From assembly GCF_004217495.1 (NCBI RefSeq), contig NZ_SHLC01000001.1, forward strand, positions 1,736,001 through 1,800,000: a stretch of DNA of 64,000 nt, in the 5' to 3' direction. This stretch comes from Microterricola gilva. Its GTDB lineage: Bacteria; Actinomycetota; Actinomycetes; Actinomycetales; Microbacteriaceae. The notes under the pieces were generated by a model, which saw only the letters and a program-made list of their open reading frames with translations, made no database searches and was not told the origin of the DNA. The translations under genes were made by a program, and so were the position numbers. Below are positions 298-48,734 of this stretch, piece after piece (position 1 is the stretch's first letter; every line of letters begins with the position of its first letter).

Positions 298-1930
298 GCT
301 CCCCCGCGCTCGTCCGTCGGGCGACCACCCAGACGCGCACGGCGCCGAGCACACCGAGCGCGAGGAACACCACCGCGACGAGCATTGCCGCTCTCGTTCC
401 GTCGCTGAATCCCTCGGCCAGCGCCTTGACGACCGTGTCTGTGTCGGAGCCGAATGGGCTCGACGAGCCCTGCTGCCGAAGGATCTCGATCGTCGTTCCC
501 GCACTCTGCCTGGTTTCCTCCGCCGCCTGCGTCGCAGCGTCGCCGGTGATGCCGTCCTGCGCGAGCGCGTTCGGCAGAGTGAAGGCCAGCGCCATGGAGA
601 GGGCCGCACCGGAGAACGCCGTGCCGAGGGCGGAGCCGACCTGTCGCACGGTGCTCTGGGTTGCGGAGCCCTGACCGGACTGCTTCGGCGGAACGTCGCG
701 CAGCACGGTGCTGGTGAGCTGGGCCGATGCCAGGCCGAGGCCGAGGCCGTAGACCGCGAGAATCGCCGCGATCGCCCAGCCGGAGGTCGTCGAGCTGATG
801 AAGAGCGCCAGGACGAGGACTCCGGCGACCTCGAGGAAGAGTCCGAGGAGCACGACGCCTGGCGCGCCGAACCGCGCGGCCAGGTGGCGGGCAGATGCTC
901 CGGAGAGGAAGGCGCCGACGGCCATCGCCGCCAGGATCAGGCCGGCGATCATCACATCGAGCCCGAGCACGTTCATCAGGTACAGCGGCAGCACGAAGAT
1001 GATCGCGAACTCGCCGACGGCCACCATCGCCGCCGTCACATTGCCCCAGGCGAAGGTCGGCAGGCTGAACAGGGTCAGGTCGAGGATCGCCGAGCGACCG
1101 TTGTGCGCGCGGTGACGCTCCCACAGCACGAACAGGACCAGCGCCACGATGCCGATCAGCAGCAGGACGGGCACGATCGAGATCGGCGCGGTCGCCGGCC
1201 AGGTCAGGCCGAAAATCGTGAAGTCCATCGTGGGGGTCCACCAGCCGAGGTTGGGCCCCTCGATGATGGCGAAGACGAGCGCACCGAAACCGATGCCGCT
1301 GAGCAGGGCCCCGTCGACGTCGACGCCCGGGCGGTTGTCGCCTCCGCGCGTCTCACGCACCCACAGCACCGTCGCGACCATGACGATCAGGCCGAGAGGG
1401 ATGTTCACGATGAAGATCCACTCCCACGACGCGTACTGCGTGAGTGCGCCACCGGCGAGCGGGCCGACGGCAGCCGCGCCGGAGATCACCGCTCCCCAGA
1501 CTCCGAACGCCGCGGCCCGGTAGCGCCCGCGGAACGTCGCGTTCACCGTCGACAGCGTTGCGGGCATGATGAGCGCGGCGCCGAGCGCCTGCACGACACG
1601 CGCCCAGATCAGTGGGCTCGCGGCATCCGAGAGCGCGGCCAGAATGCTGCCGATCATGAAGAGCACGAGGCCGACGAGGAGCATCCGGCGCCGGCCGAGC
1701 CGGTCGGACAAGCGCCCGGAGGAGAGCAGCAGCGCCGCCAGGACGACGGCGTAGATGCTGTTCACCCACTGGGCGTCGGTGAGGTCGAGGTTCAGATCGC
1801 GGATGATCGTCGGCAGCGCGACACCGACGATCGTGCCGTCGAGCACAATCATGCCAAGCGCTGTGGACAGAGCGGCGAGCCCCAGCCATTCACGACGCGT
1901 CGGTGGCGTCGTCTCCTCAGTGTCAGTCAT
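281..1930 (-). CDS. DHA2-type MFS drug:proton antiporter
   Basis: 549 residues, the usual size of 14-helix DHA2 (EmrB/QacA) exporters, which expel hydrophobic or cationic compounds using the proton gradient. The first helix holds the family signature LDGTIVGVALPTI and the loop after helix 2 carries motif A as GRLSDRLGRRR. A long extracytoplasmic loop (around residues 440-500, TQAAEETRQSAGTT) precedes the last helix. The ATG at 1930 has a good ribosome site (GAGGGGGATTCC). It lies 30 bases downstream of the AbgT transporter gene on the same strand, so the two are probably cotranscribed. Substrate unknown. Confidence 0.9.
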   Translation of the reverse strand: MTDTEETTPPTRREWLGLAALSTALGMIVLDGTIVGVALPTIIRDLNLDLTDAQWVNSIYAVVLAALLLSSGRLSDRLGRRRMLLVGLVLFMIGSILAALSDAASPLIWARVVQALGAALIMPATLSTVNATFRGRYRAAAFGVWGAVISGAAAVGPLAGGALTQYASWEWIFIVNIPLGLIVMVATVLWVRETRGGDNRPGVDVDGALLSGIGFGALVFAIIEGPNLGWWTPTMDFTIFGLTWPATAPISIVPVLLLIGIVALVLFVLWERHRAHNGRSAILDLTLFSLPTFAWGNVTAAMVAVGEFAIIFVLPLYLMNVLGLDVMIAGLILAAMAVGAFLSGASARHLAARFGAPGVVLLGLFLEVAGVLVLALFISSTTSGWAIAAILAVYGLGLGLASAQLTSTVLRDVPPKQSGQGSATQSTVRQVGSALGTAFSGAALSMALAFTLPNALAQDGITGDAATQAAEETRQSAGTTIEILRQQGSSSPFGSDTDTVVKALAEGFSDGTRAAMLVAVVFLALGVLGAVRVWVVARRTSAGEPSAER

Positions 1931-1960
1931 GGAATCCCCCTCTGTGCGGCCGCGCCGCTG

Positions 1961-3610
1961 CTACAAGCTCACCGGTGAATCGGGGCCCCACGGGATCCCG
2001 AGCAGGAACCAGCCCGCATAGAGCACGATCCAGCCGACGAGAATCCAGACGGTGTACGGCACCATCAGCGCGATGATCGTGCCGATGCCGGCATCCTTCT
2101 TGTAGCGCTGCGCGATCGTGACGATGAACGGGAGATAGACCATCAACGGGGTCAGCACGTTCATGGGCGAATCGCCGACGCGGTAGGCGGCGAGCAACGT
2201 CTGCGGGGCGACGTCGAGCGCCGCGAAGATCGGCACGAAGATCGGCGCGAAGATCGCCCACTTCGGCACAACGCCGGGCAGGATCATGTCGAGGACGAAG
2301 ATCACGAGCACGAAGGCGACGAGCAGGACGACGGCTGGAACGTTGGCCTGTTCGAGCAGGTGAGCGGCCTCGACGGCTGCGACGGTCGGCAGGTGGGTCC
2401 AGTTGAAGAGGGCGATGAACTGGGAGATCATCAGGAACATCAGCAGCAGGCCGCCGAGGCTGCCGAAAGTCTTGCCGATGGCGCCGACGACGGCGTTGCC
2501 GCCGCGCATGGTGTTGGCGCCGATGCCGTAGCAGGCGCCGCAGACGAGAAAGCCGAGCGAGATGATGAAGATCAGGCTGGCCATGAACGGCGTCGCGCCG
2601 ATGAGTTCGCCGGTCTCGTTGTCGCGCAGGGGCGCTCCTGGCGGCAGGGTGAGTGCGAGCACGATGACCACGACGACGAGCAGACCCCACAGGGAGAAGC
2701 GAAGGCCGCGTGCCTCGCCCTTCTCGTCGACCGCCTCGCCGGTGGTCGCGTCGACGGGTTCGACCATCGTGTAGCTGCCGAGGCGGGGCTCGACGATGCG
2801 CACGGTCACGACGACGGCGATGAGCGCCATCAACACGGAGGACACGATGGCGAAGAACAGGTTCGCCGTCACGGTGAGCGGTTGCAGTCCCAGGCTGCCG
2901 AGCGCCTCGTTGGTGATCTCGGTCAGCATCGAGTCCACAGGGGTGATCAGCACGTTCACCGAGAAGATCGCGCCGACGCCGGCGAACGCCGCGGCCATGC
3001 CGGCCAGCGGGTGGCGCCCGACCGAGAGGAACGCGGCTGCGGCCAACGGGATGAGGATGAGGTAGCCGGCATCCGAGGCGACGGAGGAGAGAACGCCGAC
3101 GAAGATCAGGATGAAGGCGAGCGACCAGCGCGGGGCGACCTTGACGATCTTGCGGATGAGCGCGCCCATGAGGCCCGCGTGTTCGGCAACACCGACGCCG
3201 GCCATGGCGACGAGCGTCACAGCGACGACACCGAATCCGGCGAAGTTGTCGACGAAGGACGAGAAGAAGAACTCGATGCCGTCCGGGGAGAGCAGGCTGC
3301 GCACCGCGAAGGTCTGCTCGCTTGTCGTGAACTCTGGCAGATCGACGAACGCCCCGGTGGAGGTGTCGTACGGCATGATCGTTCCGCCGAGGGCGTTGTT
3401 GAGCTGTTCGAGCTGCTCGATCGGAACCGGGGTGATCACCTCATCGGTGACGCTGACGCCGATCCACGAGAGCACCGCGGAGAGCAGCGCGATGAAGGCA
3501 ATCAGGTAGACGAACATGATCGTCGGGTTGGGCACCTTGTTGCCGAGCGTCTCGATGGCGTTGAGGAATCGGCCGGATTCCTTGACCTTTGGCGCTTCTG
3601 TTGATGACAT
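1961..3610 (-). CDS. AbgT family transporter
   Basis: 549 residues with about a dozen hydrophobic segments. The N-terminal stretch LNAIETLGNKVPNPTIMFVY and the later SSVASDAGYLILIPLAA and FSVNVLITPVDSMLTEITNE are typical of the AbgT family (E. coli AbgT, Neisseria MtrF). E. coli AbgT imports p-aminobenzoyl-glutamate, a folate breakdown product; MtrF-type members have been reported to export sulfonamides. Sequence alone does not say which applies. No abgA/abgB hydrolase lies next to it, although an M20 peptidase is encoded 20 kb away. The DHA2 exporter follows 30 bases downstream, which slightly favours an efflux role. Confidence 0.92.
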   Translation of the reverse strand: MSSTEAPKVKESGRFLNAIETLGNKVPNPTIMFVYLIAFIALLSAVLSWIGVSVTDEVITPVPIEQLEQLNNALGGTIMPYDTSTGAFVDLPEFTTSEQTFAVRSLLSPDGIEFFFSSFVDNFAGFGVVAVTLVAMAGVGVAEHAGLMGALIRKIVKVAPRWSLAFILIFVGVLSSVASDAGYLILIPLAAAAFLSVGRHPLAGMAAAFAGVGAIFSVNVLITPVDSMLTEITNEALGSLGLQPLTVTANLFFAIVSSVLMALIAVVVTVRIVEPRLGSYTMVEPVDATTGEAVDEKGEARGLRFSLWGLLVVVVIVLALTLPPGAPLRDNETGELIGATPFMASLIFIISLGFLVCGACYGIGANTMRGGNAVVGAIGKTFGSLGGLLLMFLMISQFIALFNWTHLPTVAAVEAAHLLEQANVPAVVLLVAFVLVIFVLDMILPGVVPKWAIFAPIFVPIFAALDVAPQTLLAAYRVGDSPMNVLTPLMVYLPFIVTIAQRYKKDAGIGTIIALMVPYTVWILVGWIVLYAGWFLLGIPWGPDSPVSL

Positions 3611-3656
3611 CGTGCTCGCCTTCGTGCATTCCGACTCACGGTGATGAATCGATTCC

Positions 3657-3680
3657 CCGACAGTCGGACGCGGCTGTCGG
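3657..3680. promoter_or_regulatory. Inverted repeat upstream of the AbgT gene
   Basis: Perfect 7-base arms CCGACAG and CTGTCGG separated by 10 bases, ending 46 bases before the AbgT start codon (minus strand). The position suits an operator or a leader hairpin. No adjacent regulator gene is visible, so the partner is unknown. Confidence 0.35.
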
Positions 3681-3791
3681 TCTCAACATAGCGGGCAGGA
3701 GGCCGAAATCGTGGCAATCAGCGTCGCAATGCGTCGGCCTCGACACCCGCGCTCGGTCGAGCTAGGCTCGCGGCAACCGAGGGGGCTCACG

Positions 3792-3980
3792 ATGACTGGA
3801 CTTGTTGCGGCGATGGTGGCAAGCGGCGGCGTAGTGCTGGCCGGAATTCTGATCACCGCGCTGGTCGTGAGCAGGCGACCGTTCCGCCGCGTGAGTGCCG
3901 TGGTGGGCGACGATGAGGGCGCGCGTGCGGCCGCTGAGATTCAGGCGCAGATCGATCGCGGACGCTCGGCCTCGTTCTAG
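3792..3980 (+). CDS. Small single-span membrane protein
   Basis: 62 residues from an ATG at 3792 that follows a purine-rich GAGGGGG. One hydrophobic helix (residues about 4-26, VAAMVASGGVVLAGILITAL) is followed by a basic RRPFRR and a charged tail with GARAAAEIQAQIDRGR. This is an N-out/C-in or signal-anchor layout. An upstream in-frame start at 3711 would add 27 Arg/Pro-rich residues without a ribosome site and is less likely. No known family. It is followed directly by a stem-loop. Confidence 0.55.
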   Translation: MTGLVAAMVASGGVVLAGILITALVVSRRPFRRVSAVVGDDEGARAAAEIQAQIDRGRSASF

Positions 3981-4021
3981 CCGAGGTCACGCCGCTGCGG
4001 CGTGAACCGCCTTGACCTCGG
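3981..4021. terminator. Nested stem-loop between convergent genes
   Basis: Two inverted repeats: outer arms CCGAGGTCA (3981-3989) and TGACCTCGG (4013-4021), inner arms CACGCCG (3988-3994) and CGGCGTG (3998-4004). It starts at the stop codon of the small membrane protein gene and lies 34 bases from the 3' end of the convergent HNH gene. There is no T-run on either side, so it may be a Rho-assisted or bidirectional terminator rather than a classical intrinsic one. Confidence 0.45.
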
Positions 4022-4054
4022 TGAGGACCAGACGTATGAGGGCAGCGCCGGTGC

Positions 4055-5461
4055 CTAGAACGGCGGGGTGTCCGGGTAGTTCGTTGGGGTTTCGACAGGA
4101 TCAACCAGCGGGGGCGGCTCAACCGGCTGGGACGGCGGCGGGGCTGGCGGCGGGTCCGGTGGGGGTCTTCGGCTGCCGGGTGGGGCCGGGTGGGTGTCGT
4201 AGATGCGGCCGGCCGGGCTGACCCAGCGGAGGCCGCCCTGCCCCAGCTGTCGGACCCGCCAGCGGGAGTTGTGCTTGAGCCGGTGATGCTTCTTACACAG
4301 CACCGCCAGGTTGTCCTCTTCGCTGAGGCCGTCGTACCCGAAGGGGTGGGTGTGGTCGATCTCGGACCGTTCGGCCTTCCGGGTGCACCCGGGGAATCGG
4401 CAGATCTGGTCGCGGTAGAGGATCCAGCGGCGCAGCGCTTTCGTGAGCGGGTACTTCCGCGGGTCCAGTTGAAGTGGGGTGCCGTCGACCGGGTCGACGA
4501 GGATCCGGTGCAGTGTCGGGGCTGCGGCGACGAGCCGGCGGGCGGTGTCGGCGTCGATCGGCCCATAGCCGTGCAGCTCCGCCGGGTCGTCGGACTGCCC
4601 GATCAGGGTCGCGTACGGGATCGTCAGTTTCGGCACGGCGACGAAGACCTCGGGGCGGGAGAACGCCAGCCCGGGCATCCGCGACTTTGAAGTGCCGCCT
4701 GCGGGTGGACTGAGCAGCAGTTCGGCGGCGATGTCTGCCTCCAGTTGGGCGTGCGTCCCCGAGGTCAGCGCGGTCCGCGTGTCGGGCAGGTCGGCGGTAT
4801 CGAGGGCCTCAGCCTGGGCCTGGTCGGCGAGTTGACTGATCCGTTCGGTGATTGCGATCGCTCTCTCCGCCTCCAAGTGCAGGTGCAGCCACGCCATGCT
4901 GTCAGCGGCGGGTTCGAACCAGAGTCGGCGTTCCGCCCGGCCCTTCGCCGCCCGCACAGTCAACGAATCGGGGTGGAGGCGTTCCCGGATCCTCGCCGCC
5001 GTCCGTCGGAACGCGGTCGGGGTTTGTGTGGCCGCCTTGGTCAAGGCTTCGGCTTCGAAGCGGGCGTGGAGCTCCGGTGGGAGGGTGACGGCCTGGGCGA
5101 GGATCTCCCGCACGTGGCGTTGGCCGACCGTGCCGGCGGCGAGGGCGGCCAGCGAGTTCTGAAACACGGTGCCGAGTTGCTTGGCCTCGTAGATGAGCCC
5201 GGTCATGGTCCGCTCGTGCACCCGGAGGACGAGTGCGAGTTCGGCGGTGATGCTGCGAAGCGCGAAGTCCTCCTCGATCCGCCGCGACTTACCCATCGGA
5301 TCCGCCGTGGCGATCGCGTGGGCGCGGGCCGTTTCGATGAAGCGGTACTGCTCGGCCTGGGCGGATCCGATCGAGGACTGGACCGCGGCGAGGCCGTTCA
5401 GGCATCCAGTGATGACCGGGTCGGCGGCCGATCCGGGGAGCTGCAACAGTGCTTCGCTCAT
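4055..5461 (-). CDS. DUF222-HNH endonuclease-like protein
   Basis: 468 residues. The N-terminal 290 or so residues resemble DUF222, the helical domain found in many actinobacterial HNH proteins. The C-terminal HNH zinc-finger nuclease domain spans about residues 354-397: Cys354 and Cys359 (CRFPGC), the catalytic pair in EIDHTHP (His370), Asn384 (EDNL), and Cys389 with His393 (CKKHHRLKH). A Pro-rich tail of about 40 residues follows. These genes exist in many copies per genome in Microbacteriaceae; their function is unsettled (putative mobile or selfish nucleases). The last codons contain a copy of a dispersed repeat also present in the adjoining intergenic DNA. Confidence 0.9.
   Translation of the reverse strand: MSEALLQLPGSAADPVITGCLNGLAAVQSSIGSAQAEQYRFIETARAHAIATADPMGKSRRIEEDFALRSITAELALVLRVHERTMTGLIYEAKQLGTVFQNSLAALAAGTVGQRHVREILAQAVTLPPELHARFEAEALTKAATQTPTAFRRTAARIRERLHPDSLTVRAAKGRAERRLWFEPAADSMAWLHLHLEAERAIAITERISQLADQAQAEALDTADLPDTRTALTSGTHAQLEADIAAELLLSPPAGGTSKSRMPGLAFSRPEVFVAVPKLTIPYATLIGQSDDPAELHGYGPIDADTARRLVAAAPTLHRILVDPVDGTPLQLDPRKYPLTKALRRWILYRDQICRFPGCTRKAERSEIDHTHPFGYDGLSEEDNLAVLCKKHHRLKHNSRWRVRQLGQGGLRWVSPAGRIYDTHPAPPGSRRPPPDPPPAPPPSQPVEPPPLVDPVETPTNYPDTPPF
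4089..4113. repeat. Dispersed 25-bp repeat inside the HNH gene 3' end
   Basis: Bases 4089-4113 begin GGTTTCGACAGGATCAACCA and match 5567-5591 (beginning GGTTTCGACAAGCTCAACCA) at 22 of 25 positions. Here the repeat is translated as part of the Pro-rich tail (PLVDPVETP on the minus strand). Similar GGTTTCGACAAGCTCAACCAACGG sequences are, to my knowledge, common dispersed repeats in Microbacteriaceae. Confidence 0.6.
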
Positions 5462-5566
5462 GCCTAAATCGTCTCACCGACCACCGACACGACTTCTCGC
5501 AAAGAGGCCCTGAGTCAGGGGTTGTCCACAGGCAACCGTGGACCGTGACATAACCGAGGCCTGCGG

Positions 5567-5591
5567 GGTTTCGACAAGCTCAACCAACGGG
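5567..5591. repeat. Dispersed 25-bp repeat, intergenic copy
   Basis: Starts GGTTTCGACAAGCTCAACCA and matches the copy in the HNH gene tail at 22 of 25 positions, same orientation. It sits about 105 bases upstream of the HNH start codon, so the two copies bracket the HNH gene. Confidence 0.6.
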
Positions 5592-5603
5592 TTTTCCGGC
5601 CAA

Positions 5604-5778
5604 GGCTCAGGGCTTCGGTCGCTGGCGCTCCCTCAAGTCAGCGTGGGCGGTGGACGATTCACGAGGGGTCGCCAGGGGGGGCGGGAGTGCCCGGCGAGGG
5701 CTCGGGGCTTCGGTCGCTGGCGCTCCCTCAAGCCAGCGTGGGAGGTGGACGATTCACGAGGGTCGTCAGCGTGGGAGG
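5604..5778. repeat. Tandem repeat, 95-base period, in a 530-base gene-free stretch
   Basis: The gap 5462-5995 holds no convincing gene. Bases 5604-5667 and 5699-5762 are 64-base copies with only three differences, spaced exactly 95 bases apart. Each copy contains CTTCGGTCGCTGGCGCTCCC and TGGACGATTCACGAGGG. A third partial copy begins with TCAGCGTGGGAGGCGG at about 5766. All open frames here carry low-complexity Arg/Gly/Ser composition that mirrors the repeat, so I read this as non-coding repeat DNA rather than a gene. Confidence 0.75.
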
Positions 5779-7089: not shown

Positions 7090-7096
7090 CTTTCTG

Positions 7097-7169
7097 TGGG
7101 CCCTACCGGGCTCGAACCGATGACATCCACGGTGTAAACGTGGCGCTCTACCAACTGAGCTAAAGGCCC
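7097..7169 (-). tRNA. tRNA-Val (anticodon UAC)
   Basis: 73 bases fold as a standard cloverleaf: acceptor GGGCCTT/AGGGCCC with one G-U pair, D-arm GCTCAGTTGGTAGAGC, anticodon stem CCACG/CGTGG around loop TTTACAC giving anticodon UAC, and T-arm CCGGT/ATCGG around TTCGAGC. The discriminator base is A. The CCA end is not encoded (the genome reads CAG next), so it is added after transcription. Confidence 0.95.
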
Positions 7170-8461: not shown

Positions 8462-8682
8462 TGTGCGACTCCTGTTCCGATTCGACGGCGAGTCGTCGAA
8501 TGCCAGCATCGATCGTAACGGCCCCGGTGCACACACGGTCGAAATAGAATCAATAGGATGACTGATTGTGCCCGGTCGCGACCCGACCAGGTCTTCGCAT
8601 GTGTGAAGTTCGACTTTTGAGCACGCCGACACGGCTTGGTCTGCACACGCGATCGGTTCTAACACATAGAGAGAGGTCGACT

Positions 8683-11409
8683 GTGACTGTCAACGACCAG
8701 GACCCGTACTCGGTCAACAACCTGGACTCCGATCCGGAGGAAACAGCAGAGTGGGCCGAATCACTCAATGCGCTCGTCGCCGCTCACGGGCACGAACGTG
8801 GTCGCGAGATCATGCTGAGCTTGTTGAAGCGCTCGAAAGAGCTGCACCTGGGTGTTCCCATGGTTCCGACCACCGACTACATCAACACCATTGCCCCCGA
8901 GAACGAGGCTCCGTTCCCCGGCAATGAGGAGATCGAGCGCCGTTACCGCGCCTGGCTGCGCTGGAACGCCGCCGTCATGGTGCACCGCGCACAGCGCCCC
9001 GGCATCTCGGTCGGCGGACACATCTCCACCTACGCCGGCGCCGCCTCTCTCTACGAGGTCGGCTTCAACCACTTCTTCCGCGGCCAGGACCACCCGGGCG
9101 GCGGAGACCAGATCTTCATCCAGGGTCACGCCTCGCCCGGCACCTACGCCCGCGCCTACCTCGAGGGCCGCCTGAGCGAGAAGCAGCTCGACGGATTCCG
9201 CCAGGAGAAGTCACAGGCCCCGTACGGTCTCTCCTCGTACCCTCACCCTCGCCTGATGCCGGAGTTCTGGCAGTTCCCGACCGTGTCGATGGGTCTCGGA
9301 CCGATCAACGCGATCTACCAGGCTCAGACGAACAAGTACCTCACCAACCGCGGCATCAAGGATGCAAGCGACCAGCAGGTCTGGGCGTTCCTCGGCGACG
9401 GCGAGATGGACGAGGTCGAGAGCCGCGGCCAGCTGCAGGTCGCAGCCAACGAGGGCCTCGACAACCTCAACTTCGTGATCAACTGCAACCTGCAGCGCCT
9501 CGACGGCCCCGTCCGCGGCAACGGCAAGATCGTCCAGGAGCTCGAGAGCTTCTTCCGTGGCGCCGGTTGGAACGTCATCAAGGTCGTCTGGGGCCGCGAG
9601 TGGGACGACCTCCTCGCCCGCGACACCGACGGCGCACTGCGCACCCTCATGAACGTCACCCCCGACGGTGACTACCAGACCTACAAGGCCGAGAACGGCG
9701 CATACGTGCGCGAGAACTTCTTCGGTCGCGACCCGCGTGCACTCGAGCTCGTCAAGGACCTGTCCGACGACCAGATCTGGGGCCTCAAGCGCGGTGGCCA
9801 CGACTACCGCAAGATCTACGCGGCGTTCAAGGCGGCATCCGAGCACAAGGGCCAGCCCACCGTCATCCTGGCGAAGACCGTCAAGGGCTACGGCCTCGGA
9901 CCGAGCTTCGAGGGCCGCAACGCGACCCACCAGATGAAGAAGATGACGCTGGACAACCTCAAGACGTTCCGCGACGCCATGCACATCCCGGTCACCGACG
10001 CACAGCTCGAAGAGAACCCGTACCTGCCGCCGTACTACAAGCCGGCAGACAACGACGAGGCGATCGAGTACCTGCACGAGCGTCGTCGCGAGCTCGGCGG
10101 CTACCTGCCGGAGCGTCGCACCGCCCACACCGCGATCTCGCTGCCGGATGACTCCGCGTACGCGATCGCGAAGAAGGGCTCAGGCACGCAGGAGATCGCC
10201 ACCACCATGGCGTTCGTGCGTCTGCTGAAGGACCTGATCCGCAGCAAGGGCTTCGGCCACCGCATCGTGCCGATCATCCCCGACGAGGCCCGCACCTTCG
10301 GTATCGACGCCTTCTTCCCGACGGCGAAGATCTACAACCCGAACGGCCAGCACTACACCTCGGTCGACCGCGAACTGCTGCTCGCCTACAAGGAGAGCCC
10401 GCAGGGCCAGATCATCCACGTCGGCATCAACGAGGCCGGCGCGCTCGCGTCGTTCACGAACATCGGAACCAGCTACTCCACCCACGGCGAGCCGCTGATC
10501 CCGGTCTACGTGTTCTACTCGATGTTCGGCTTCCAGCGCACCGGCGACGCCATCTGGGCCGCCGGTGACCAGATGGCCCGCGGTTTCATGATTGCGGCGA
10601 CCGCCGGTCGTACCACGCTGACCGGTGAGGGCCTGCAGCACGCCGACGGCCACTCGCTCGTTCTCTCCGCCACCAACCCGGCCGTCGTCTCGTACGACCC
10701 GGCATACGGCTACGAGATCGGCCACATCATCCGCAGCGGCCTCGAGCGCATGTACGGCGGCGAGCACGAAGACCCGAACGTCATGTACTACGTCACCGTG
10801 TACAACGAGCCGATCATCCACCCGGCCGAGCCGGAGAACCTCGACGTCGACGGCATCGTGCGCGGCATCTACAAGCTCAAGGACGGCACGATCGCCGGCC
10901 CGAAGGCTCAGCTGCTGGCATCCGGTGTCTCGATTGCGTGGGCCCTCGAGGCGCAGGAACTGCTCGCGAACGACTGGGGTGTCTCGGCCGATGTCTGGTC
11001 GGTCACCTCGTGGAGCGAGCTGCGCCGCGACGGCCTGGCCGCCGACGAGCACAACTTCCTGAACCCGGATGCCGAGCCGCGCACGCCGTACGTCTGGGAG
11101 AAGCTGGGCACCGCTCAGGGCCCGTTCATCGCCGTGACCGACTACTCGCACAGCGTCCCCGACCAGATTCGCCCCTTCGTTCCCGGAACGTACGCGACCC
11201 TGGGTGCCGACGACTTCGGTTTCAGCGACACCCGCGCCGCTGCCCGTCGCTTCTTCAAGATCGACGGCCCGTCGATGGTCGTCCGCACGCTGCAGGCGCT
11301 CGCCGCCCGCGGCGAGGTGGACCGCAACGCTCCGGCGCAGGCAATCGAGAAGTACCGTCTGCACGATGTGAACGCCGGTACGACGGGCTCAGCCGGGGGC
11401 GAGAGCTAA
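8683..11409 (+). CDS. aceE: Pyruvate dehydrogenase E1 component, homodimeric
   Basis: 908 residues from a GTG with ribosome site GAGAGGT. AceE decarboxylates pyruvate using thiamine diphosphate and passes the acetyl group to lipoylated E2, giving acetyl-CoA. The thiamine-binding motif starts at [15 protein letters not shown] and ends near [33 protein letters not shown] and [12 protein letters not shown]-like segments ([20 protein letters not shown]) are typical of the single-chain alpha2 enzyme of actinobacteria and enterobacteria. The start is set by the ribosome site; an in-frame ATG at 8566 would add a 39-residue extension not seen in the family. The acetyl-CoA link fits the fatty acid genes that follow. 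Confidence 0.96.
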
Positions 11410-42935: not shown

Positions 42936-43955
42936 ATGACAACCACAACCGGCATCCGCCTCGCCATGACCGCGGCCGTGTATCGCCATTTCGGCGCACC
43001 GGACGTCGTCCGTCTCGAACAGCTCCCGATCCCCGCGCCTGGCCCAGGCGACGTGCTCATCAGGGTGCACGCCAGCACCGTCAGCGTCGCCGACCACCGG
43101 GCCCGCAGCCGCGACATCCCGGCCGGCCTCGGGCCGCTCGCCGCCGTCGGGCTCGGCGTGTTCCGGCCGAGCCGGCGCATCCTCGGCATGGACGCCGCTG
43201 GCGTCGTCGAGGCCGTCGGCGCCGGTGTCACCCGCTTCGCCCCTGGCGACCGGGTGATCGCCATGACCGGCGGGGCATTCGGCGGACACGCCGAGTACGT
43301 CCGCGTGCCCGAGGACGGCGCGATCGCCCGTGCCCCAGAGAAGATGAGCTTCGAGGAGGCGGTCACACTGGTGTTCGGCGGCGTCACCGCCCACGGATTC
43401 TTCCGGAACGTCACCATCGGCTCGGGCACCACGGTGCTCGTCAACGGTGCGTCCGGCGCCGTCGGCACCGCCGCCGTCCAGCTCGCGAAGGAGCTCGGCG
43501 CCGATGTCACCGCCGTGACGAGCGGGGCCAACGCCGAACTGGTCACCTCACTCGGGGCCGACCGCGTGATCGACTACACGAAGCAGGACTTCGCGGCATC
43601 CGGCCCCTCATTCGACGTGATCGTCGAGTGCGTCGGCAACGCGCCGTTCGACAGGGTCAGTGCTGCCATCAACCCGGGCGGGGCCCTCCTCCTGATCATC
43701 GCGGACCTCAGGGGGATGCTCCGAAGCCGGGGGCAGAGCCGCCGCTCGGGAAAGCTCGTGACCTTCGACGTTGGAAAGCCCGCCGCCGAGGATCTCGCGT
43801 ATCTCGTCAGCCTCGCGGACGCGGGGCGCTTCCGGGCCGTCATCGACCGCAGCTATGACCTCAGCGACATCGTCGAGGCGCATCGTTACGTCGACACCGG
43901 ACGCAAGCGAGGCAACGTCGTGTTGCGCGTCGCCGCAGTGCGGGACGAGCAGTAG
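42936..43955 (+). CDS. MDR-family NAD(P)-dependent dehydrogenase/quinone reductase
   Basis: 339 residues. GroES-like N-domain (VLIRVHASTVSVADHRAR, ILGMDAAGVVEAVGAGV) then a Rossmann domain with VLVNGASGAVGTAAVQLAKE. The catalytic-zinc Cys of alcohol dehydrogenases is absent at the usual place, which fits quinone-oxidoreductase-type or enone reductases using NADPH. The C-terminal 37 codons are part of a direct repeat with a second copy 2.1 kb downstream (45902-46021), flanking a foreign nuclease gene. The protein is full length, so it is probably functional. Confidence 0.9.
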   Translation: MTTTTGIRLAMTAAVYRHFGAPDVVRLEQLPIPAPGPGDVLIRVHASTVSVADHRARSRDIPAGLGPLAAVGLGVFRPSRRILGMDAAGVVEAVGAGVTRFAPGDRVIAMTGGAFGGHAEYVRVPEDGAIARAPEKMSFEEAVTLVFGGVTAHGFFRNVTIGSGTTVLVNGASGAVGTAAVQLAKELGADVTAVTSGANAELVTSLGADRVIDYTKQDFAASGPSFDVIVECVGNAPFDRVSAAINPGGALLLIIADLRGMLRSRGQSRRSGKLVTFDVGKPAAEDLAYLVSLADAGRFRAVIDRSYDLSDIVEAHRYVDTGRKRGNVVLRVAAVRDEQ

Positions 43956-43964
43956 TCGGGCCCA
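43827..43964 (+). repeat. Direct repeat copy 1: 3' end of the dehydrogenase gene
   Basis: Bases 43827-43938 match 45902-46013 at 110 of 112 positions; the two differences are synonymous third bases (His and Arg codons). After an 18-base insertion in this copy, homology resumes with CGGGCCCA (43957-43964 against 46014-46021). This copy gives the dehydrogenase the end VAAVRDEQ. Confidence 0.95.
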
Positions 43965-44331
43965 AGTTCACTCCTACGAAGTCCTCGTGCTCTGGGACCC
44001 ACTCGCCCCTGTAAGGGTCCATACATACTGGGCTTCCGGAGGAAAAGGGGATTCGTGCGCGCACGCAACCAAGGGGCGGCGCACTTTGTGACGAGAAACG
44101 CGGTTGGCTAGCGCGCTCCTCGCCTGCACGGTAGTCCGACCGAGACTCCCCATTGCGCAAGAGAAGTCGAGCGTCAAGCATCAACGACTGAGGGACTTCC
44201 TCGTGTGGATTCTGCAGCAGTAGCGTTCGCAGTGAAATCAATCTCACGCTTCAAGCCTTAGTGTTGCAAGGGCGGCTGACATCACCTTGGAATCCGCACC
44301 AAGGGTGAATACGACGGCAACGGGGGCGTAC
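43956..44331. other. Gene-free left part of the inserted nuclease element
   Basis: 376 bases between the dehydrogenase stop and the nuclease start. Base composition shifts to lower GC along it. I see no integrase, transposase, tRNA or terminal inverted repeats. The decamer AGTAGTCGGG (43951-43960) recurs with one change as AGGAGTCGGG at 45891-45900, one base before repeat copy 2. The promoter of the nuclease gene should lie in this stretch. Confidence 0.6.
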
Positions 44332-45741
44332 ATGAACTTGAGTAGAGCACGTAGACAAGTCCAAGAATTCATAGATGCCATCGTGGCGGCAGATGAGCAT
44401 GCAGACGTTGGAGACGTCGAGCACGTAGCGGCGAGGATTGATTCGGATTGGGCGGTACCGATCCTCGTCGGCCTTTGGTCTGCGTCATTGGGAGCGGACC
44501 AGTTAGAACTCGCTCGATATCGCCCTGCAGTCAAACGCGCGCTCGTTGCGCTTCGCACGTCGAATCATGGCGACCCGGGTCGATCTGTCTCAGCGCTGGT
44601 TGGGCTTGTGACGGCGTGTGCCAACGACCACTCCGACTATCTGGCAAGCGTGTTACCTGAGTTTGAGACGGCCGACACCGAGAATTCTGGCGAGTTGATC
44701 TCCGTTGGGGAAGGCCTGCAGCTTGCGCCGGATGCCAACAGGCTAGCGGCGTCACCTTCGATGGCGCGACTAGCCCGCCTTGCCAATGGCGCGGACCCCG
44801 CCCGGCTATTGCCTGATACGACCCATCTTCGAAACGTTCCGCAGGGGCCGCGTTATGCAGAGCTATGGCGCGGCCTCTATTTGCGGCTGGCCGCGGTGAT
44901 ATGGCTCCAGCGATTTGATTTCAGAACAGCCGTCCCAAATGCGATTATCTTCTTGCCCAAACAGTTCTACACACAGTTCCATCTCGTCCCCGAATTCAGC
45001 ACCCGATCTGGCAAGTCAACTTCCTTAGTGTTTGGGTCTGCGGATATCGGTTTGTTGTTGGACAGCGCTGCGGTAGACGGCAAACCTGGAAGCAACGACA
45101 TGCAGCTCACCGCTTACCCGCTGCATCCCGTCTCCGGCGGCTACGTTACATCGCTTGCCCTCCTGTACGACTCCGTTGCGCCTTGGGCGCAGCTCTGGCT
45201 CCACAGGATGGATCTCTGGAAGGTAGCGGTTAGCGATCCATTTGAGGCGGAAGTGATCTCCCGCTTCGAGAGCTGTGGATTCATAGCCGGTAGCGTGAGC
45301 GAGTCGGGCCATTGGTCTCTCGGCGCCATCGATCTCCGCCCAAACAGTTCCGGAACGGTACTTGAGATCAGCCAATCTCTCGCCAATGCCGGTCGCAGCC
45401 CCGGCGAGATAGACGTCCTAGCCTGGAACGACGCGGAGGGTCTCCTCATGTTGTGCGAATGCAAGTCGATCAACGCTACTCACAACTTGCAGACTGCCGC
45501 GACGAAATTGTCGGCCACCGACGCAGCTGGCTGGCGCAAGAAGCTCATAAAGAAGAAGGAGTGGATCGAAGCCGCGTGCGGTCGACCGGTCGACTTTACG
45601 TTCATTGCATTAGAGGGTATTAGCTATTACATGTCTAGCGAGGATCAGGATCCGATGATCTTGGATCGCGAACGACTGCAGCATCTTCTGGCCGACATTT
45701 TCACTCCTGATGGCACGTTGCGCATTCAAGAAGGCGCGTGA
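44332..45741 (+). CDS. Putative PD-(D/E)XK nuclease, foreign origin
   Basis: 469 residues from ATG 44332 (GGGGG upstream; TTG 44287 and GTG 44305 are possible longer starts). The C-terminal third has the nuclease pattern: a helix FEAEVISRFESCGF, then GEIDVLAWND with Asp361, then LLMLCECKS with Glu376 and Lys378, the D-(x)n-E-x-K core of restriction-type nucleases. The first 320 residues are a helical region of no known family. Codon use is visibly AT-richer than neighbours (for example TTA, ATA and AAA codons). It sits between duplicated copies of the dehydrogenase 3' end. A defence or homing role is inference. Confidence 0.8.
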   Translation: MNLSRARRQVQEFIDAIVAADEHADVGDVEHVAARIDSDWAVPILVGLWSASLGADQLELARYRPAVKRALVALRTSNHGDPGRSVSALVGLVTACANDHSDYLASVLPEFETADTENSGELISVGEGLQLAPDANRLAASPSMARLARLANGADPARLLPDTTHLRNVPQGPRYAELWRGLYLRLAAVIWLQRFDFRTAVPNAIIFLPKQFYTQFHLVPEFSTRSGKSTSLVFGSADIGLLLDSAAVDGKPGSNDMQLTAYPLHPVSGGYVTSLALLYDSVAPWAQLWLHRMDLWKVAVSDPFEAEVISRFESCGFIAGSVSESGHWSLGAIDLRPNSSGTVLEISQSLANAGRSPGEIDVLAWNDAEGLLMLCECKSINATHNLQTAATKLSATDAAGWRKKLIKKKEWIEAACGRPVDFTFIALEGISYYMSSEDQDPMILDRERLQHLLADIFTPDGTLRIQEGA

Positions 45742-45898
45742 GCCCATCCGTTGCCATTTGGAAGTGGCGCATGTCGAATCCACCGGCATCAGTTGTAGCG
45801 CGGACGGCGCGTGAATCGTTGACTGGCGGGCACCGTCAGATCCTAACCGCAAGGTGCATGACCTAGGAGACTCACCCGACGCGGTCTGCGAGGAGTCG
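45742..45898. other. Gene-free right part of the inserted element
   Basis: 157 bases between the nuclease stop and repeat copy 2. No gene, no tRNA and no inverted repeat of note. It contains the near-copy AGGAGTCGGG of a decamer found at the left junction. Confidence 0.5.
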
Positions 45899-46030
45899 GG
45901 ACGCTTCCGGGCCGTCATCGACCGCAGCTATGACCTCAGCGACATCGTCGAGGCGCACCGCTACGTCGACACCGGACGCAAGCGAGGCAACGTCGTGTTG
46001 CGCGTCGCCGCAGCGGGCCCAGCCGCGTGA
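45899..46030 (+). pseudogene. Direct repeat copy 2: orphan 3' fragment of the dehydrogenase gene
   Basis: The dehydrogenase frame resumes at GRFRAVIDRSYDLSDIVE and runs to a TGA at 46028-46030 with a different end (VAAAGPAA). There is no start codon or N-terminal part, so this is a fragment of about 43 codons. The fragment is 98 percent identical to copy 1 over 112 bases. It probably represents either the original gene end displaced by the insertion, or an end carried in by the element. Confidence 0.9.
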
Positions 46031-46039
46031 CCGTCCGCC

Positions 46040-46522
46040 TCAGGCGGGCAGGCTCGCCTCGATCGCGGCCAGGACGGCCGGGGCGTCTGGCACGGTGCGC
46101 GGGCGGAAACGCTGGACAGTGCCGGAAGGAGTCACCAGGAACTTCTCGAAGTTCCACTGCACCTTGCCCGCTTTGCCGTCCGCATCCGCGGTCTTCTTCA
46201 GCTCGGTGTACAGAGGGTGTTCGTGACGCCCGTTCACCCGCACACGATCGAAGATCGGGAACGTGATGCCGTACTTCGCGGAGCAGAGTTCGATGATGGC
46301 GTCGTTGGAACCCAGTTCCTGCAGGAACTGGTTACTCGGGAACCCGAGCACTTGAAGACCGCGTTCGCCGTACTGCTCCTGGAGCTTCTCGAGCGTCGCG
46401 TACTGCGGGGCGAGGCCGCACCGGGATGCGACGTTGACGATCAACAACGCCTTGCCCTCGAATGCGGCGAGCGAGATTTCCTTGCCATCCATGGTCATGA
46501 ACGGGATGTCGCGAATACCCAT
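46040..46522 (-). CDS. Glutathione peroxidase family protein (Cys type)
   Basis: 160 residues from ATG 46522. The peroxidatic Cys35 is in VNVASRCGLAPQY, with Gln65 (FPSNQF) and Trp in VQWNFEKFLV completing the catalytic set. It uses Cys, not selenocysteine. Cys80 (IIELCSAKYG) is placed like the resolving cysteine of thioredoxin-dependent members, so the reductant is probably thioredoxin or mycothiol-linked rather than glutathione. Divergent from a ThrE gene. It lies 9 bases after the orphan dehydrogenase fragment, convergent. Confidence 0.93.
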   Translation of the reverse strand: MGIRDIPFMTMDGKEISLAAFEGKALLIVNVASRCGLAPQYATLEKLQEQYGERGLQVLGFPSNQFLQELGSNDAIIELCSAKYGITFPIFDRVRVNGRHEHPLYTELKKTADADGKAGKVQWNFEKFLVTPSGTVQRFRPRTVPDAPAVLAAIEASLPA

Positions 46523-46679: not shown

Positions 46680-48095
46680 ATGCCCGATGAGGTAGTCGAC
46701 CCGGCGGTGCTCCGCAGATTCATGCTGGGGCTGGCCGAGGGAATGAACGCCGCCGAGGAGTCCGTCGACCGCATCCGCGACACCATGGTCGCGGTCGCCC
46801 AGAGCTATGGTCGCAGTGACACCGAGTTCGTGGTGTTGCCCACCGTCATCATCGTGCAGACACGGGCCGTTGAGGAGGGGCGCGTCGAGATCCGTTCGAC
46901 GGGCGCGTCGTTCCGCTTCGATCAGATCGCGGCGCTCTACACGCTCGTCGAAGAAGCCCGGCGGGGCGAGGTCGACCCCCTCGACGGCATCCACAGGCTG
47001 AACGACATCGGCTCGATGAAGCCGCGACACGCCTGGGCCGTACGCACCTTCGGTCACGCGTTGCTCGCGGCCGGGCTCTCACTTCTCCTCGCGCCGACCT
47101 GGCAGGGTTTGCTGGTGGCGTTCGTGCTTGGTGCCTTCATCGGCGTCGCAAAGCTCGTGCGCTCGCCAACGCTGCAGATCGTGTTCCCCGTGTTCGTAGC
47201 GTTCGCGTGCGCGCTAGCCGTGTTCCTCATCGCACCGTACGTCGCCATCGGCGACCCGATCCGGTTGCTCGTCGCCCCACTCGTCACGTTCCTTCCCGGA
47301 GGGGTCTTGACGACCGCGACGGTGGAGCTTGCCGCCGGGCAGATGATTGCCGGGGCATCGCGGCTCGTCTTCGGTCTCGTCCAGCTCTCCCTCCTCGCGT
47401 TCGGCATCCTCGCCGCTGGCACCGTCGTCGGTGTTGACAGCTCGAGTTATGTGCCGGAGGCGGCGACCGGAGCATTCCCGTGGTGGGCGGCGATCGGCGG
47501 TGTGCTGCTGTTCGCGATCGGCAACTACCTGCACTTCTCCGCGCCCGCCTCAACTTTCGGCTGGGTGTTGCTCGTGCTGGTCGTCGCGTACATCGGTCAG
47601 GCGCTCGGCACGGCATTCGTCGGATCGACCGTGAGCGGGTTCGTCGGCGCGCTCGCCATGACACCGGTCGTGCTGTGGATCGCGAGCCTCCGCGGCGGCG
47701 CACCGTCGCAGTTGACGTTCCTCCCCGCATTCTGGCTGCTGGTTCCTGGCGCAGCCGGCTTGGTGGGGCTCACCGAGGCCGTTGGGACAACGAAGGGGTT
47801 CGAAGACTTCGTCACCGCGCTCACCTCGGTGATGTCCATCGCCCTCGGCGTGCTCATCGGCACGGCGCTGTACCGCACGGTGCACCGTGGCGCGGAGGAG
47901 CTCGCCGAGTTCCACATCGATGTGCCCGCCGCGCTCACCGAGGAGAAGGCGCCACCGTTCTGGGCGAAGTTGATCCCCGGCACTCCCCGATCGTTCTGGC
48001 GACGACCGCATCGCGAGCCGGCGGTACGGCCCGCTGCTGGGGCCCCGGCGCTGACCGAAGCCAGCGCCAGCCAGAGTGCGCCAAGCCGAGACTGA
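46680..48095 (+). CDS. ThrE-family threonine/serine exporter
   Basis: 471 residues. The cytoplasmic N-domain (RFMLGLAEGMNAAEESVDRI, FVVLPTVIIVQT) is followed by ten helices, with the repeated signature LLVAPLVTFLPGGVLTTATVELAAGQMIAGASRL and TFLPAFWLLVPGAAGLVGL near the end. This is the normal ThrE layout, unlike the paralogue at 28499 with its long ectodomain. A charged cytoplasmic tail of about 75 residues ends the protein. It is divergent from the peroxidase gene, 157 bases apart. Confidence 0.9.
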   Translation: MPDEVVDPAVLRRFMLGLAEGMNAAEESVDRIRDTMVAVAQSYGRSDTEFVVLPTVIIVQTRAVEEGRVEIRSTGASFRFDQIAALYTLVEEARRGEVDPLDGIHRLNDIGSMKPRHAWAVRTFGHALLAAGLSLLLAPTWQGLLVAFVLGAFIGVAKLVRSPTLQIVFPVFVAFACALAVFLIAPYVAIGDPIRLLVAPLVTFLPGGVLTTATVELAAGQMIAGASRLVFGLVQLSLLAFGILAAGTVVGVDSSSYVPEAATGAFPWWAAIGGVLLFAIGNYLHFSAPASTFGWVLLVLVVAYIGQALGTAFVGSTVSGFVGALAMTPVVLWIASLRGGAPSQLTFLPAFWLLVPGAAGLVGLTEAVGTTKGFEDFVTALTSVMSIALGVLIGTALYRTVHRGAEELAEFHIDVPAALTEEKAPPFWAKLIPGTPRSFWRRPHREPAVRPAAGAPALTEASASQSAPSRD

Positions 48096-48125: not shown

Positions 48126-48734
48126 TCAGCGCTTCTTCGCGAGTCGCAGGTCGAGCCCGCTCCGAACCTGCGGCCACTCCGAGGCGATGATTGAGAAGAC
48201 GACGGTGTCGCGGAGCGAACCGTCTGGCATGCGACTCGTCGCACGCAGCACCCCGTCCTGTTTCGCCCCCAACCGCGCAATCGCCTCGCGGGACTGCATG
48301 TTCATCCAGTGCGTGCTGAACTCGACAGCGACGCAGTCAAGAGTTTCGAACGCGTGTCCGAGCAGCAGTCGCTTGCTGTCAGGATTCGTTCCCGTTCCCT
48401 GCGCGCTCGCTGCGTTCCAGGTGTAGCCGATCTCCACGCGTGGCAGTTCGGCGTTGATGTCGCAGTACGAGGTCATGCCGATGATCGTGCCGGGGCCGCC
48501 TGAAACGGAGTCGTTCAGACGCGTCGTGAACGGAACCATCGAGCCGTCTTCCTGCCTGGCCAGTCGCCGCTGGATCTCGGTGAGCATGTCCTCTGGGCGC
48601 GGCACCGAGGTGTACCAGAGGTTCCACAACTCGCCATCGGATGCCGCCTCGACCAGCCCGTCGTGGTGCTCCTCGCTCAGAGGTTCGAGGGTGACAAACT
48701 TTCCACGGAGAGTTACTGGGGAGATCCGAGCCAT
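48126..48734 (-). CDS. GNAT-family N-acetyltransferase (RimJ/RimL type)
   Basis: 202 residues. The opening ISPVTLRGKFVTLEPLSEEH and the core EIGYTWNAASAQGTGTNPDS resemble RimJ/RimL-type acetyltransferases. The acetyl-CoA loop normally reads Q/RxxGxG/A; here it is AQGTGTN. VAVEFSTHWMNMQSREAIARLGA matches the typical V-x-F-x(3)-NxxSxxaiekLG region. Substrate (protein N-terminus or small amine) unknown. Convergent with the ThrE gene. Confidence 0.88.
   Translation of the reverse strand: MARISPVTLRGKFVTLEPLSEEHHDGLVEAASDGELWNLWYTSVPRPEDMLTEIQRRLARQEDGSMVPFTTRLNDSVSGGPGTIIGMTSYCDINAELPRVEIGYTWNAASAQGTGTNPDSKRLLLGHAFETLDCVAVEFSTHWMNMQSREAIARLGAKQDGVLRATSRMPDGSLRDTVVFSIIASEWPQVRSGLDLRLAKKR

Follow-up and report, generated by a model that had tools for sequence, protein, structure and literature searches.

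A recent insertion of a rare nuclease-like gene tied to a duplicated gene end in Microterricola gilva

We analysed a window of 64 kb (64,000 nucleotides; positions 1,736,001 to 1,800,000 of contig NZ_SHLC01000001.1, assembly GCF_004217495.1) from the actinomycete Microterricola gilva, in which a nuclease-like gene lies behind an alcohol dehydrogenase (ADH) gene, between two copies of the 3′ end of that gene. The anchor gene is an intact zinc-type alcohol dehydrogenase/quinone reductase gene (window positions 42936–43955, plus strand; Pfam ADH_zinc_N_2 and ADH_N), whose product ends in VAAVRDEQ and whose counterpart in a congener, here called G002, gave an 87% identical match. Sequence comparison places the first copy of the gene-end repeat within this gene (copy 1, 43827–43938, plus strand). 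The second copy, 2,075 bases further on (copy 2, 45902–46013, plus strand), is an ADH 3′ end without the rest of the gene. The two are identical at 110 of 112 positions, and both differences, at 43883 and 43886, are synonymous third-position changes (CAT CGT in copy 1, CAC CGC in copy 2); chance is excluded as the origin of this match. The tail of copy 1 (43939–43964, plus strand) consists of 18 bases that are not in copy 2 and then of CGGGCCCA, which is common to both copies (43957–43964 and 46014–46021). The tail of copy 2 (46014–46030, plus strand) stays in frame to a TGA at 46028–46030, reads VLRVAAAGPAA at its end and stops 9 bp before the stop codon of a converging peroxidase gene. A preliminary description of this DNA had taken CGGGCCCA as homology resuming beyond an 18-base indel. 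The motif is indeed present in both copies, but a match of at least 8 bases arose in 4.9% of 2,000 random draws of 40 bases, so this detail is weakly significant and only suggestive. In a scan of the whole window (16-base seeds, repeats of 40 nt or more), one further direct repeat was listed besides the ADH ends, a 72-nt near-tandem pair at 5596–5762 (93% identity, spacing 95 bases). No second place for 43827–46030 was returned in the 3.67-Mb genome itself (40 of 41 candidates scored).

Between the copies lies an inserted segment of 1,937 bp (43965–45901) with a low G+C content (GC), which G002 lacks between its orthologues of the ADH and acetyltransferase genes. It holds a single long gene of 469 codons (44332–45741, plus strand), with a GC of 57.6% (64% at third positions) compared with 70.7% (89%) for ADH, and its non-coding flanks are also low in GC (58.6% on the left and 61.9% on the right). 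Six other open reading frames (ORFs) of at least 80 amino acids (aa) lie wholly or partly between the copies. None was recognised as a transposase or integrase gene, the five minus-strand ORFs having no Pfam match at E 0.01; the sixth ORF (43771–44091) overlaps ADH and was not scanned. Nor was a methyltransferase recognised in the insert. Small ORFs of at least 30 codons are present in the flanks (34 and 39 codons on the plus strand and 67 on the minus strand to the left; 31 on the plus strand to the right), and a promoter scan found no promoter, with 0.5 expected by chance. Two other kinds of insertion were considered and set aside. For a transposon with terminal inverted repeats, none of the 25 listed of 50 inverted repeats in 43700–46200 pairs the borders; for an insertion targeted to RNA or tRNA genes, the window has a single RNA-family match, to a tRNA-Val (7096–7169). 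Taken together, these observations support a foreign gene whose recent insertion is tied to a duplicated gene end. They also bear out the preliminary description in its account of a 112-base repeat with two synonymous differences, of a low-GC insert of about 1.94 kb with one 469-residue gene, and of an insert in which no transposase or integrase is recognised.

Which copy is native can be judged from the two differing sites, at both of which copy 2 agrees with the nearest congener, G002 (CAC CGC). We compared the ADH site of 14 relatives, one genome per species: three congeners including G002 (E 1e-80) and 11 further genomes of the family (E 1e-115). The histidine codon is CAC in 13 of them; the arginine codon is CGC, as in copy 2, in nine, CGG in three and CGT, as in copy 1, in two; the copy 1 pair of CAT and CGT occurs in none. 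The histidine site thus points clearly to copy 2 as ancestral, and the arginine site less so. In addition, the frame of copy 2 remains open to its TGA, close to the converging peroxidase stop, as expected of a former gene end. Because it carries the G002 bases and lies only 9 bp from the next gene, copy 2 is likely to be the original ADH end of the resident, with copy 1 as an imported replacement end. The copies differ at 2 of 112 positions, whereas copy 2 and G002 have 85.7% identity over a 119-bp match. The divergence between the copies is thus much smaller than that between copy 2 and G002, which, gene conversion apart, dates the insertion to after the split from G002. Downstream of ADH, about 1.5 kb was covered in 13 of the relatives and 198 bp in one; within this sequence none of the 14 has a peroxidase or nuclease gene behind ADH, and none has a repeated ADH end. 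In G002, ADH is followed by a convergent gene for a 370-aa protein without an assigned family and then by the acetyltransferase gene, and the region downstream of ADH varies between the two closest congeners.

The 469-aa product carries the motifs PGExD (residues 357–361) and ECK (376–378) in its C-terminal third, the GEID...ECK core of the preliminary description, on the C-terminal side of about 350 residues without an assigned domain. No Pfam family exceeded its cut-off for this protein, with the same outcome for the four family members scanned in all, and no NCBIfam or PHROG family was over cut-off or at a convincing E-value for the two members scanned (in PHROGs, nothing below E 0.8 for the window protein). 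The family is new only in the sense of its absence from these three libraries, no literature search having been made for it. For the window protein, library matches under E 0.01 were confined to the C-terminal core and to one protein, Upx (PADLOC, E 0.001; NCBIfam, E 0.0019), which NCBIfam labels as an anti-phage protein (NF042954). The NF042954 match reached 15.4 bits, with the cut-off at 1900, and covered residues 352–397 only, well short of full-length Upx. In NCBIfam a Lactococcus relative was matched to this part of Upx at E 0.029; PADLOC gave no match for it. A solved structure labelled Restriction endonuclease (PDB 9wuf), which from its length and the matched position is probably Upx or a close relative, was matched at E 0.049 by the window protein alone and at E 0.0016 and 0.00059 by two- and three-member profiles. 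Upx and the window protein are alike in a PG(D/E)ID...ECK core near the C terminus; they differ in length (about 1240–1270 aa for Upx, about 470–530 aa for the proteins described here), and no similarity was detected outside some 60 core residues. By these comparisons the window protein is not Upx, and the common part is the nuclease core. Both P-G-E-x-D and E-C-K are invariant in all six aligned sequences (the window protein and five relatives, the second Lactococcus copy being left out). A single-sequence structure model has a strand-strand-helix arrangement at the core, in a C-terminal region of 145 residues with a mean predicted local distance difference test score (pLDDT) of 47.4, too poor for a fold search; the mean pLDDT of the full-protein model is 35.9. 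The motif has the acidic residue and the (D/E)-x-K that in the PD-(D/E)XK superfamily stand on adjacent strands of a beta-beta-alpha core. Together with the 9wuf profile match it points to a probable PD-(D/E)XK-like nuclease gene, whose predicted product would most likely act on its own in phage defence, as an endonuclease of this kind resembling Upx.

Six further members of the family were found: three on viral contigs, two on Lactococcus plasmids (94% identical to each other) and one in an actinomycete of the same order. The M. gilva genome has one copy and, with this genome included, a member was found in 1 of 398 genomes of the bacterial family (its own only), 1 of 396 of the phylum (its own only) and 2 of 396 of the order (its own and one other), the three samples overlapping. 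General genome contigs and phage records gave no further member, and E. coli genomes, probed with the DNA of one of the viral genes (that of contig L067, described below), gave none either. First-pass scans can miss remote relatives: the viral contigs gave none in two scans and three members in a third, and two later scans returned the same three.

The neighbourhoods of these relatives differ. On Lactococcus plasmid p14B4 (locus L008, 5845–9294) the relative adjoins a gene for an AbiO/Nhi-type helicase. On plasmid pUCCL641A (L044) it lies between transposase genes of the IS981 and IS6-family insertion sequences (IS), within perfect 742-nt inverted repeats (4408–5149 and 8612–9353), the first of which overlaps the IS981 gene, and it may travel on IS elements like the cargo of a composite transposon. 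In one viral contig (L067; IMGVR_UViG_2568526419_000001, 1910–5585) an S24-peptidase (umuD-like) gene and a umuC-type gene come first, and the relative follows 351 bp further on as the next ORF listed, so that it may be expressed with SOS genes. A second (L065; IMGVR_UViG_3300012243_000012, 1372–5600) carries umuC, a 220-aa ORF on the opposite strand without a Pfam family, a decayed umuC 3′ end and then the relative. The umuC-end repeat (2284–2637 and 3648–3947) is 68% identical with gaps; its second copy ends 65 bp before the nuclease gene, which lies downstream of the repeat pair and not between the copies. This array looks like an older case of gene-end stacking, with the nuclease as older cargo. 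In the third viral contig (L066) the relative is near an integrase gene and upstream of a terminase gene. The actinomycete relative, P0003 (L064, 5359–8175), lies a few hundred bases behind a gene for an NYN-domain protein, in the same direction, which makes that protein a possible partner. No single cognate target gene emerges across the family: the neighbours are ADH in the window, umuC in two of the six others, and otherwise the side of an integrase gene, two plasmid settings and the NYN-domain gene. The neighbourhoods fit cargo or defence genes.

The preliminary description had also expected the nuclease at other loci flanked by duplicated gene ends. This held in part, in that a gene-end repeat lies beside the nuclease in one of the six other members (L065), with the gene outside the repeat pair; the other five have none, one of them (the actinomycete) being cut on the right by the contig end. 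The total absence of such duplications that was named as grounds for refutation is thus not strictly what we see, the L065 pair standing upstream only. As a rough background, none of the 14 ADH relatives has a gene-end repeat, although these were scanned less sensitively and the numbers are too few to conclude from. Sensitive self-comparison also revealed shorter repeats, none of them counted here as gene ends: in L066, 35-nt repeats (86%) on either side of the relative, within the integrase gene and a later ORF; in L044, a 45-nt repeat (100%) with one copy in an IS6 gene; and, away from the nuclease, repeats of 52 nt in L067, 49 and 94 nt in L008 and 30 nt in L064.

To the right of the insertion, copy 2 is followed by a glutathione peroxidase gene (46040–46522, minus strand; Pfam GSHPx), a divergent gene for a ThrE-family exporter (46680–48095, plus strand; Pfam ThrE) and a GNAT acetyltransferase gene (48126–48734, minus strand; Pfam Acetyltransf_3), which is 92.6% identical in G002 and serves as the right syntenic marker. 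The peroxidase is 53–56% identical to the enzymes of four congeners and to the other copy in the same genome (G000:C1:1989824), all of which are 82–98% identical among themselves; judged by these identities it is an acquired second copy, and the native gene is the one at G000:C1:1989824. A peroxidase gene and a ThrE-family gene are also paired and divergent in a genome of another genus of the family (G130). By this comparative evidence, the interval to the right of ADH was already plastic before the insertion. Three matches in the family from about 46000, considered as homology beyond the peroxidase, were GC-rich fuzz in the alignments, with no common ADH end.

We propose that the nuclease gene is a passenger, installed by a single crossover with circularised DNA that carried an ADH end, and we put the probability of this reading at about 0.5. 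A DNA segment from a near relative, with ADH followed by the nuclease gene, would have come into the cell, where its ADH end was shortened and the DNA circularised. One RecA-type crossover within the short ADH stretch left on the circle would then have integrated it, giving the resident ADH the donor 3′ end (copy 1) with the nuclease behind it, and pushing the old 3′ end of the resident (copy 2), together with the peroxidase gene, to the far side. A single crossover with a truncated circle yields the order of a hybrid intact ADH, the nuclease, the old ADH end and the old neighbour; the nuclease would be a passenger and not the driver of the event. We infer the donor layout, the circle, the crossover and the defence activity from the sequence. 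A passenger role is consistent with the settings of the relatives, of which a Lactococcus member lies beside AbiO/Nhi, two viral members behind umuC and one viral member beside integrase and terminase genes. A precedent comes from E. coli: the available text of PMC3240628, on an experiment aimed at homology-facilitated illegitimate recombination, reports that 56 of 60 recombinants gave a polymerase chain reaction product diagnostic of a duplicated lacZ end, and that the 14 sequenced had duplications of 109–950 bp, which are explained there by one crossover with a circle that lacked part of the lacZ end; the remaining four clones were deletions. As far as that account goes, the likeness is a duplicated 3′ end beside foreign DNA after a single crossover; it differs in having an engineered plasmid, conjugation and the resident lacZ, compared with natural actinomycete DNA and an inferred donor here. 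Displacement through a circle is likewise proposed for Rhs tips in the accessible part of PMC2935791. The M. gilva genome encodes Ku and a ComEC-type protein (families matched in 1 and 10 of 14 control genomes, respectively), which permit, but do not show, end-joining and uptake.

Several observations weigh against this proposal. ComEC is not diagnostic; CGT also occurs in two of the 14 relatives, and the derived bases of copy 1 could be two plain mutations. Neither the donor form (ADH and nuclease without copy 2) nor the recipient form (ADH and peroxidase) was found in the genomes examined, one per species; the empty site predicted by the preliminary description, with ADH directly followed by the peroxidase gene, was seen in 0 of 14, and the nearest congener has a different next gene. 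Immediately to the left of copy 2, an in-frame reading gives EESGRF, and this sequence is similar to ADH alleles of other genera; 9 of 12 bases are as in the allele of G149, a level reached by 0.05% of insert positions, this being the best of eight post hoc tests. This hints that copy 2 may once have reached further left and then been homogenised by gene conversion. Accordingly, gene conversion could have homogenised 112 bp either in a partial duplication of the ADH end that was already there or in a diverged piece of ADH brought in with the peroxidase block, and the nuclease would have arrived separately. The sharp drop at the left edge, where 98% identity gives way to 8 matches in 12 and 10 in 18, with a readable EESGRF, speaks for such a history, as does the peroxidase gene beside copy 2, which is itself acquired. 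The left extension is nevertheless only 12–18 bp and the tests were chosen afterwards, the low GC extends to the non-coding flanks of the insert, and one event accounts for repeat and insert together; we consider this history unlikely. Had the donor been linear, joined by homology on one side and illegitimately on the other, the scar would be nearly the same. In this route, homology-facilitated illegitimate recombination whose right border is end-joined, the geometry is the same, a short CGGG is shared at the right border, Ku is in the genome, and the available text of PMC5361080 invokes the process for immunity arrays of the type VI secretion system (T6SS). In E. coli, by the account in PMC3240628 as far as available, the events ascribed to it were the four deletions among 60 clones and the duplications were ascribed to circles. 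The linear and circle routes are not separable by sequence alone, and we give the linear one a small share of the probability.

The remaining alternatives give the inserted DNA a mobility of its own. Integrative elements usually insert at gene 3′ ends and restore the gene. The repeats could be attachment sites of such an element at the ADH 3′ end, with its integrase acting in trans or lost, as in a remnant resembling a cis-mobilizable element (CIME); a restored 3′ end and the variable region downstream of ADH in the two closest congeners agree with this. The insert, however, has a single long gene and no integrase recognised between the copies, and the absence of a repeated ADH end from all 14 relatives gives no sign of an attachment site common to other elements, so we view this origin as doubtful. 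The preliminary description had raised the idea of a nuclease that mobilises itself, by cutting gene 3′ ends such as uninterrupted ADH and being copied in with a replacement end, as in homing or an enzyme-driven long target duplication. What invites this idea is a foreign gene that encodes a nuclease core and lies between two copies of a gene end, as do the L065 relative, 65 bp downstream of a second umuC 3′ end, the L067 relative as the next listed ORF behind umuC, and the long target duplications with which restriction–modification genes are described as inserting (PMC3031569 and PMC1643837, in the portions available). Against it stand the single copy in the genome and the rarity in the samples, the position of the L065 nuclease outside its repeat pair, the absence of gene-end repeats from five of six other members (one of the five cut by its contig end), the resemblance to Upx and the several contexts of defence or prophage cargo. 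Because the contexts of the relatives differ and the M. gilva genome has one copy, we rank a self-mobile element low and regard it as unlikely, and the part of the preliminary description that made the nuclease the driver of insertion is not supported. In its widest form this idea would have the enzyme cut near gene ends as a preference of the whole family, with repair from the incoming copy putting in a new gene end together with the nuclease; ADH here and umuC in the viral contigs would then be independent captures by a one-gene, transposase-free mobile element, which seems very improbable.

Insertion of restriction–modification genes with long target duplication is a related pattern, for which Nobusato (2000) and Furuta (2010) are the works cited. 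In the parts of PMC3031569 and PMC1643837 available, this mode of insertion is described for such genes. The present locus is alike in that direct repeats of host DNA enclose a foreign gene of restriction type, without a transposase, and a long host repeat does stand at its borders, so the resemblance drawn in the preliminary description is sound in that respect. It differs in that no methyltransferase was recognised in the insert and in that copy 1 is like an imported end and not a resident copy; an empty allele was found in 0 of 14 relatives, which with one genome per species is weak evidence. A further likeness is to displaced gene ends. In Rhs tips (PMC2935791) and T6SS arrays (PMC5361080), as far as the available text of these papers goes, new cargo brings a new gene end with it and the earlier end is moved downstream; the T6SS arrays are explained there by homology-facilitated illegitimate recombination. 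All parts of such an array are seen here: an intact anchor, a new end with cargo, an old end with G002 bases and an in-frame stop, and the peroxidase gene behind. L065 has a similar array. The cargo differs, being a toxin tip or an effector–immunity module in those systems according to the same text, compared with an unrelated metabolic anchor gene and a separate nuclease gene here.

Overall, the locus is read most simply as a recent insertion of a rare, defence-like nuclease gene that was the passenger of a known kind of recombination. The analysis brings out a small nuclease family, present on viral contigs and Lactococcus plasmids, with a core related to that of Upx. It also places the gene-end displacement scar of Rhs, T6SS and restriction–modification loci in an actinomycete, behind an ordinary metabolic gene, which suggests that homologous recombination by itself can place single defence genes downstream of conserved ones, with no need for an enzyme of a mobile element.

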